Below, in pieces: positions 34,742 through 36,430 of a stretch of DNA of 36,430 nucleotides. The stretch is from Thermoproteales archaeon (GTDB lineage Archaea; Thermoproteota; Thermoprotei; Thermofilales; Thermofilaceae), in the NCBI GenBank assembly GCA_021163245.1, contig JAGGXB010000131.1:1-36430 (forward strand), in the 5' to 3' direction. Made by a program: the position numbers and the translations under genes. The notes beneath the pieces were generated by a model, which saw only the letters and a program-made list of their open reading frames with translations, was not told the origin of the DNA and did no database searches. Position 1 is the stretch's first letter. Every line of letters starts with the position of its first letter.

Positions 34742-34790
34742 TCAGTTGGGTAAGTTTACATCATTGGTCTGTGCCGGAAGTATTCATCAT
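34742..34790 (-). ncRNA. Box C/D guide RNA (sRNA A)
   Basis: Reading the minus strand: C box ATGATGA (34790-34784), 12-nt guide ATACTTCCGGCA (34783-34772), D' box CAGA (34771-34768, one base from CTGA), spacer CCA, C' box ATGATGT (34764-34758), 12-nt guide AAACTTACCCAA (34757-34746), D box CTGA (34745-34742). Equal 12-nt spacings are the rule for archaeal 2'-O-methylation guides. A TATA-like element TATATA (34814-34819) lies about 25 bases upstream. Expected targets are TGCCGGAAGTAT and TTGGGTAAGTTT in rRNA or tRNA, each methylated at the fifth base (G). Confidence 0.82.
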
Positions 34791-35420: not shown

Positions 35421-36179
35421 ATGGGTATAGTAACTATTAAAAAAATAAAGGAAGTTAAATTAAGAGATGGCGTATTAATACAGGGATTGCCAGGCATTGG
35501 ATTTGTAGGTAAAATAGCTGTTGATTATATACTTTCTGAGCTAAAATTACCTAAAATAGCTGAGCTATATTCTGATGGATTATTATTACCTGTTGGAAAC
35601 GCAGGTGTGTATATAAATGATAAAGGAGTATTTACTATACCGAGCTATAGGTTTTATCTACTTGAGGGAAAAGAAAGAGACATAGTCTTTTTATCTGGTG
35701 AAGTACAGCCTGTCAGCTGGTCGCAGTATGAGGTGGCTGAGAAAGTATTAGAGTTTTTCATGTCGATGGGTGGGAGAGAGGTTGTGGCTGTATGTGGAAC
35801 CACGGCCAGAGAAGATAAAGTAAAAGAAGTATATTATGCCGCAGATACGGAAGAAACAGCTAAATGGTTAGACAGCTTCGGATTTAAGAAATCTATTGGC
35901 GGTACTATTACTGGTGCATGTGGCCTTTTACCAGCTATGGCTCATTTAAAAGGCATAAAATCATATGTATTGATGGGAACAACTCTTAGCGCCGATCCAG
36001 ACCCCGAAGCAGGAAAAGTGATTGTAGAAGCATTAGTTAAAATGTTTGATATTAATGTAAGTCTCGAGAATTTGAACAAGATAATTGAAGAAATTAAAAG
36101 CAAGAAAAAAGAACTGGAACAATCTAAGGCTCTGTTAAAAAAGGAGCAGAGAGAGAGACAGCCACCTTACTATGTATAA
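35421..36179 (+). CDS. PAC2-family proteasome assembly chaperone homologue (PbaB-like)
   Basis: A 252-residue archaeal protein of the PAC2/COG1938 family, homologous to proteasome assembly chaperones and ATP-independent proteasome activators. It starts with LIQGLPGIGFVGKIAVDYIL, then TIPSYRFYLLEG, VAVCGTTAREDK, GGTITGACGLLPAMAHLKGI and LMGTTLSADPDPEAGK. A C-terminal coiled-coil-like segment (about 215-245) ends in PPYYV. The last three residues fit the HbYX pattern that docks into the 20S alpha-ring pockets, which supports an activator or chaperone role. Confidence 0.92.
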   Translation: MGIVTIKKIKEVKLRDGVLIQGLPGIGFVGKIAVDYILSELKLPKIAELYSDGLLLPVGNAGVYINDKGVFTIPSYRFYLLEGKERDIVFLSGEVQPVSWSQYEVAEKVLEFFMSMGGREVVAVCGTTAREDKVKEVYYAADTEETAKWLDSFGFKKSIGGTITGACGLLPAMAHLKGIKSYVLMGTTLSADPDPEAGKVIVEALVKMFDINVSLENLNKIIEEIKSKKKELEQSKALLKKEQRERQPPYYV

Positions 36180-36182
36180 AGT

Positions 36183-36231
36183 TCAGTATTGTCACCAAAC
36201 ATCATTTTTCAGTATTGGAGTCATTCATCAC
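36183..36231 (-). ncRNA. Box C/D guide RNA (sRNA B)
   Basis: Reading the minus strand: C box GTGATGA (36231-36225), 12-nt guide ATGACTCCAATA (36224-36213), D' box CTGA (36212-36209), spacer AAA, C' box ATGATGT (36205-36199), 12-nt guide TTGGTGACAATA (36198-36187), D box CTGA (36186-36183). AGT before C and ACT after D can pair as a short end stem. A minus-strand TATA (CTTATATAC, about 36264-36256) lies 25 bases upstream. Both guides end in CAATA. Expected targets are TATTGGAGTCAT and TATTGTCACCAA, each methylated at the fifth base (G). Confidence 0.88.
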
Positions 36232-36241
36232 ACTATTTTTA

Positions 36242-36430
36242 ATGATGAACATGGGGGTATATAAGGATGCTTCTAGAAAAAATAGAAATATGCATAGTGT
36301 TGTTGGCTTAGGATGGTGGAAAAATGTTACTAGTCGGTTAATGGATAAGCTTAGGGATAAGCCTTATTATGATGTTTTAGATGGTTTTAAAAGGCAGTTG
36401 GAGCTGGAGAAGAGGAGCTGGGTACATATC
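36242..36430 (+). CDS. Partial uncharacterised protein, runs off the window
   Basis: An open frame continues to the last base: ATG 36242 (or 36245, 36251, 36290) gives 63 codons, including NMHSVVGLGWWKNVTSR and DKPYYDVLDGFKRQLELEK. I do not recognise it. It begins close to guide RNA B, whose probable minus-strand TATA overlaps the first codons, so if B is real the true start may be the later ATG at 36290. No ribosome site is clear. Confidence 0.5.
   Translation, partial: MMNMGVYKDASRKNRNMHSVVGLGWWKNVTSRLMDKLRDKPYYDVLDGFKRQLELEKRSWVHI

Follow-up and report, generated by a model that had tools for sequence, protein, structure and literature searches.

Gene Layout at the Locus

In the window, which is the whole stretch of 36,430 nucleotides analysed here, the minus strand carries a box C/D sRNA. 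On one side of it ends a PAC2-family gene (35421-36179, Pfam PF09754), and on the other an open frame starts at about 36242, extends past the contig end and gave no Pfam match. Both neighbouring frames run on the plus strand, and the sRNA is oriented opposite to each of them. Read from 36231 down to 36183, the minus strand is GTGATGA-ATGACTCCAATA-CTGA-AAA-ATGATGT-TTGGTGACAATA-CTGA, which amounts to 49 nt from box C to box D; this interval lies inside the match of the covariance/sequence model considered below. Box C (GTGATGA, 36225-36231) is followed by the D' guide (36213-36224), box D' (CTGA, 36209-36212), a 3-nt spacer AAA that would form the K-loop between D' and C' (36206-36208), box C' (ATGATGT, 36199-36205), the D guide (36187-36198) and box D (CTGA, 36183-36186). 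Each guide is exactly 12 nt long, and the final T of box C', in place of A, sets it one base off the RUGAUGA consensus. The four boxes and their 12/3/12 spacing, as well as the CAATA with which both guides end, had been proposed in the preliminary description of this DNA and are directly established by reading the strand.

The flanks carry two further elements. A terminal stem of 3 bp can be drawn between AGT (36232-36234) and ACT (36180-36182), for which the covariation across orthologues is weak, even if it exceeds that of most shuffles. A TATA-like element, TTATATA, occupies 36258-36264; its presence agrees with the preliminary description, the distance to box C being 26 nt rather than the 25 first given. 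This position fits an archaeal transcription start just before box C, and in five of seven orthologues TATA-like elements, judged by eye, lie about 23-26 nt upstream of the same box.

Conservation within the Order

A pattern built from the D' module and run over 101 genomes retrieved full orthologues in seven genomes of the same order (G002, G004, G005, G007, G010, G012 and G026). In all of them the first guide keeps TGACT(C/T)CAA and the second TG(G/A)TGACA, against variation in box D', in the spacer and in the flanking sequence; the conservation of both guides is a direct observation. A covariance/sequence model was then built from eight sequences, that of the window included, and used to search the order's 27 genomes. 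It recovers its eight source sequences at 62-73 bits, as expected for matches by construction, and matches the window at 36177-36237 with 72.9 bits, a score to which the window sequence contributes as part of the model. Besides these, the model search returned three partial relatives with only the D-guide half and a different first guide, namely in G023, in G015 and in a second gene of G004.

The internal duplication suggested in the preliminary description is not upheld, because the D guides of relatives end in ACAAG or ACACG instead of ACAATA, without keeping the shared end, and because each guide is explained by an unrelated 16S site of its own. From this comparison, the common CAATA reads as coincidence or late drift.

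Predicted Targets in 16S rRNA

The assembly of this genome (1.95 Mb in 148 contigs) contains 16S rRNA only to model position 826, before both targets, and no assembled 23S rRNA, and for this reason the targets were read in the rRNA of relatives. The target set comprised the complete 16S and 23S sequences of six same-family genomes, and E. coli-equivalent numbering was taken from alignment to the 16S of E. coli. In this search, which the preliminary description had proposed along with a comparison of relatives, both guides reach at least 9 bp in relatives' 16S (10 bp for the D' guide and 9 bp for the D guide), and the seven same-order orthologues keep both guides.

For the D' guide, 10 consecutive Watson-Crick pairs with AATTGGAGTCAA of 16S are directly established in six of six related sequences. 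The pairing involves guide positions 2-11 from box D', the register used by the archaeal C/D RNP, and the N+5 residue, a G at E. coli-equivalent 962, lies inside the duplex; a perfect ten-base core in 16S plus 23S is found for only 0.07% of shuffled guides. On the strength of this pairing and alignment, methylation of a universally conserved spot of 16S is very probably the task of the D' guide. Four bases beyond 962 lies position 966 in h31, a modified position. What the D' guide indicates is a conserved methylation site close to 966, among the functional loops of the ribosome. The main text of the pan-archaeal survey (Dennis et al. 2015, PMC4644070) makes no mention of site 962.

The D guide forms 9 consecutive pairs with GCGTGTCACCAA of 16S in five of six relatives, through guide positions 4-12 from box D, with positions 1-3, which adjoin that box, unpaired. 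Its N+5 residue is a G at about E. coli-equivalent 1356, in the h43 region. This match by itself is no more than suggestive, because an equally good one is reached by 1.1% of shuffled guides. The D guides of all seven order-level relatives have their best site in 16S plus 23S at the same h43 position, which renders the second target believable for the window sRNA too. In this comparison the guides of G005 and G010 were paired with their own 16S, and those of the other relatives with the 16S of G005; the G004 guide forms all ten core pairs, those of G005 and G010 nine each, and the window guide appears among the weaker ones. Taking pairing and relatives together, the G at about 1356 is a probable methylation target of the D guide.

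Machinery and Class Membership

The same genome encodes fibrillarin (E=1.6e-98) and Nop5 (Nop, E=1.4e-74) in adjacent genes on contig C11, a direct observation. Transcription of the sRNA, its assembly into an RNP and the methylations are what we infer from the sequence, along the following lines. The pairing of boxes C and D would form a kink-turn and that of C' and D' a kink-loop, both binding L7Ae, after which Nop5 and fibrillarin would join the RNP. The D' guide would then pair with the h31 region of 16S, leading to 2'-O-methylation of the G at 962, and the D guide with the h43 region, where methylation would probably fall on the G at ~1356, with each methyl group placed five residues from D' or D.

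The order C-D'-C'-D, the guide length (12 nt each, within the expected range of about 10-12 nt), the complementarity to rRNA including the N+5 residue, the conservation and a host possessing fibrillarin and Nop5 are all those of archaeal box C/D sRNAs. As described in the main text of Dennis et al. (2015, PMC4644070) and in work cited there, such sRNAs likewise combine RUGAUGA and CUGA boxes with a pair of 12-nt guides and follow the N+5 rule; they too target rRNA, with both sites in a single rRNA, and have a free-standing gene. Against this description the window sRNA has no structural difference, being one more copy, so far unannotated, from an archaeon that is uncultured; an Rfam search of the window gave no match, which leaves the sRNA outside any named Rfam family. 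The locus almost certainly encodes an archaeal double-guide box C/D sRNA, some 55-60 nt long, in a free-standing gene driven from its TATA element; the sRNA would very probably act on position 962 of 16S and probably on position ~1356. It is a genuine member of a well-known class that had escaped annotation, convincing yet ordinary. It adds a well-supported guide RNA for an uncultured archaeon, leaving the understanding of C/D RNAs unchanged.

Alternative Readings

Boxes as short as these, in an AT-rich region, could in principle fall into order by accident, in which case the locus would be an intergenic piece of AT sequence where ATG and CTGA happen to abound. Scanning for C-(10-14)-D'-(1-12)-C'-(10-14)-D yields one match in the window and none in 150 first-order Markov resamplings of it, and a similar strict pattern has four matches in the whole 1.95 Mb genome, where the reversed control pattern has none. 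One of the strict-pattern matches, on the minus strand of contig C72 (5802-5853), is a C/D sRNA whose guides match 23S at two sites with 10 bp each, indicating that the pattern finds genuine C/D genes in this genome. Together with the target complementarity and the orthologues with conserved guides, these counts make a chance origin very improbable, and the conservation in relatives refutes it.

The sRNA might have a single active guide, with D' methylating 16S at 962 and a drifted D guide acting as a weak anchor or rRNA chaperone, without any methylation at ~1356. Consistent with this, the window guide misses positions 1-3 by box D where the G004 guide pairs ten and those of G005 and G010 nine, and archaeal C/D sRNAs with defective or empty second guides are known from the main text of Dennis et al. 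(2015, PMC4644070). Yet nine consecutive pairs remain and span the N+5 residue, and TGRTGACA is conserved family-wide; we regard a single active guide as less likely than not. Far less likely is a D guide that, within a genuine box C/D sRNA, targets a tRNA or another RNA, as some archaeal guides do target tRNAs according to the same main text (PMC4644070). Among 30 of the 32 detected tRNAs the best match is poor, with a core score of 5.6 (computed without the N+5 penalty) versus 6.8 at the 16S site, and the orthologous D guides all point to that 16S site. A tRNA target was rejected for the guides in general, no better match being present among the 30 tRNAs compared. Many genes of this tRNA set (L108-L137) exceed the length of a tRNA without intron, reaching 112 nt, and tRNA introns are consequently probably common in this genome.

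Wider Spread of the 962-Guide Module

Returning to the double-guide sRNA with predicted sites at 962 and ~1356, its D' module is found beyond the order. In an exact search of named genomes, it occurs in Vulcanisaeta (five genomes), one Sulfolobales genome, an Acidilobaceae MAG, a Desulfurococcaceae MAG and two Thermoprotei MAGs, as a D' or D half combined with other partner guides. The 962-guide sRNAs of Vulcanisaeta, Sulfolobales Acd1, Acidilobaceae and Desulfurococcaceae (L098-L107) have the same core TGACTCCAAT, one base before CTGA. Unlike in the window sRNA, this guide may occupy D' or D, and its partner is a different guide. Such a distribution suggests reassortment of the module or several independent origins, and reassortment or convergence of guide modules is known for archaeal C/D sRNAs (main text of Dennis et al. 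2015, PMC4644070). At loci L094, L095 and L096 the h43 guide half is joined to a different first guide, the G004 case being an additional gene of that genome; this suggests that half-genes are exchanged between sRNAs.

One scenario, which we advance tentatively and with slightly less than even confidence, is that methylation of G962 in h31 of 16S is an old and widespread C/D modification of Thermoproteia, its guide module having been kept while the partner guide was repeatedly swapped. In the present order the module would have become coupled to the h43 guide, a single RNP then serving two sites in the head of the assembling 30S subunit. Because one guide recurs in several orders beside changing partners, it offers a clean case for studying the reassortment of guide modules.

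Neighbouring Genes and Another Candidate

A conserved linkage between the PAC2 gene and the sRNA was considered and rejected, since in relatives the orthologous sRNA is located elsewhere; in G005, for example, PAC2 lies at 87 kb versus 881 kb for the sRNA. The relatives came from a search across genomes, a PAC2 protein search of contigs having given no match. In L005 a C/D sRNA does adjoin PAC2 and carries different guides: it begins at 2377 on the plus strand, directly after the relative's PAC2 gene, and its D guide has a perfect 23S match at its ten core positions.

The window contains a second C/D sRNA candidate at 34742-34790, also on the minus strand, with the arrangement ATGATGA-12-CAGA-3-ATGATGT-12-CTGA. 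The best 23S sites for its guides are about 44 nt apart (positions 2059 and 2103 of a relative's LSU), and two such nearby sites correspond to the usual double-guide layout.
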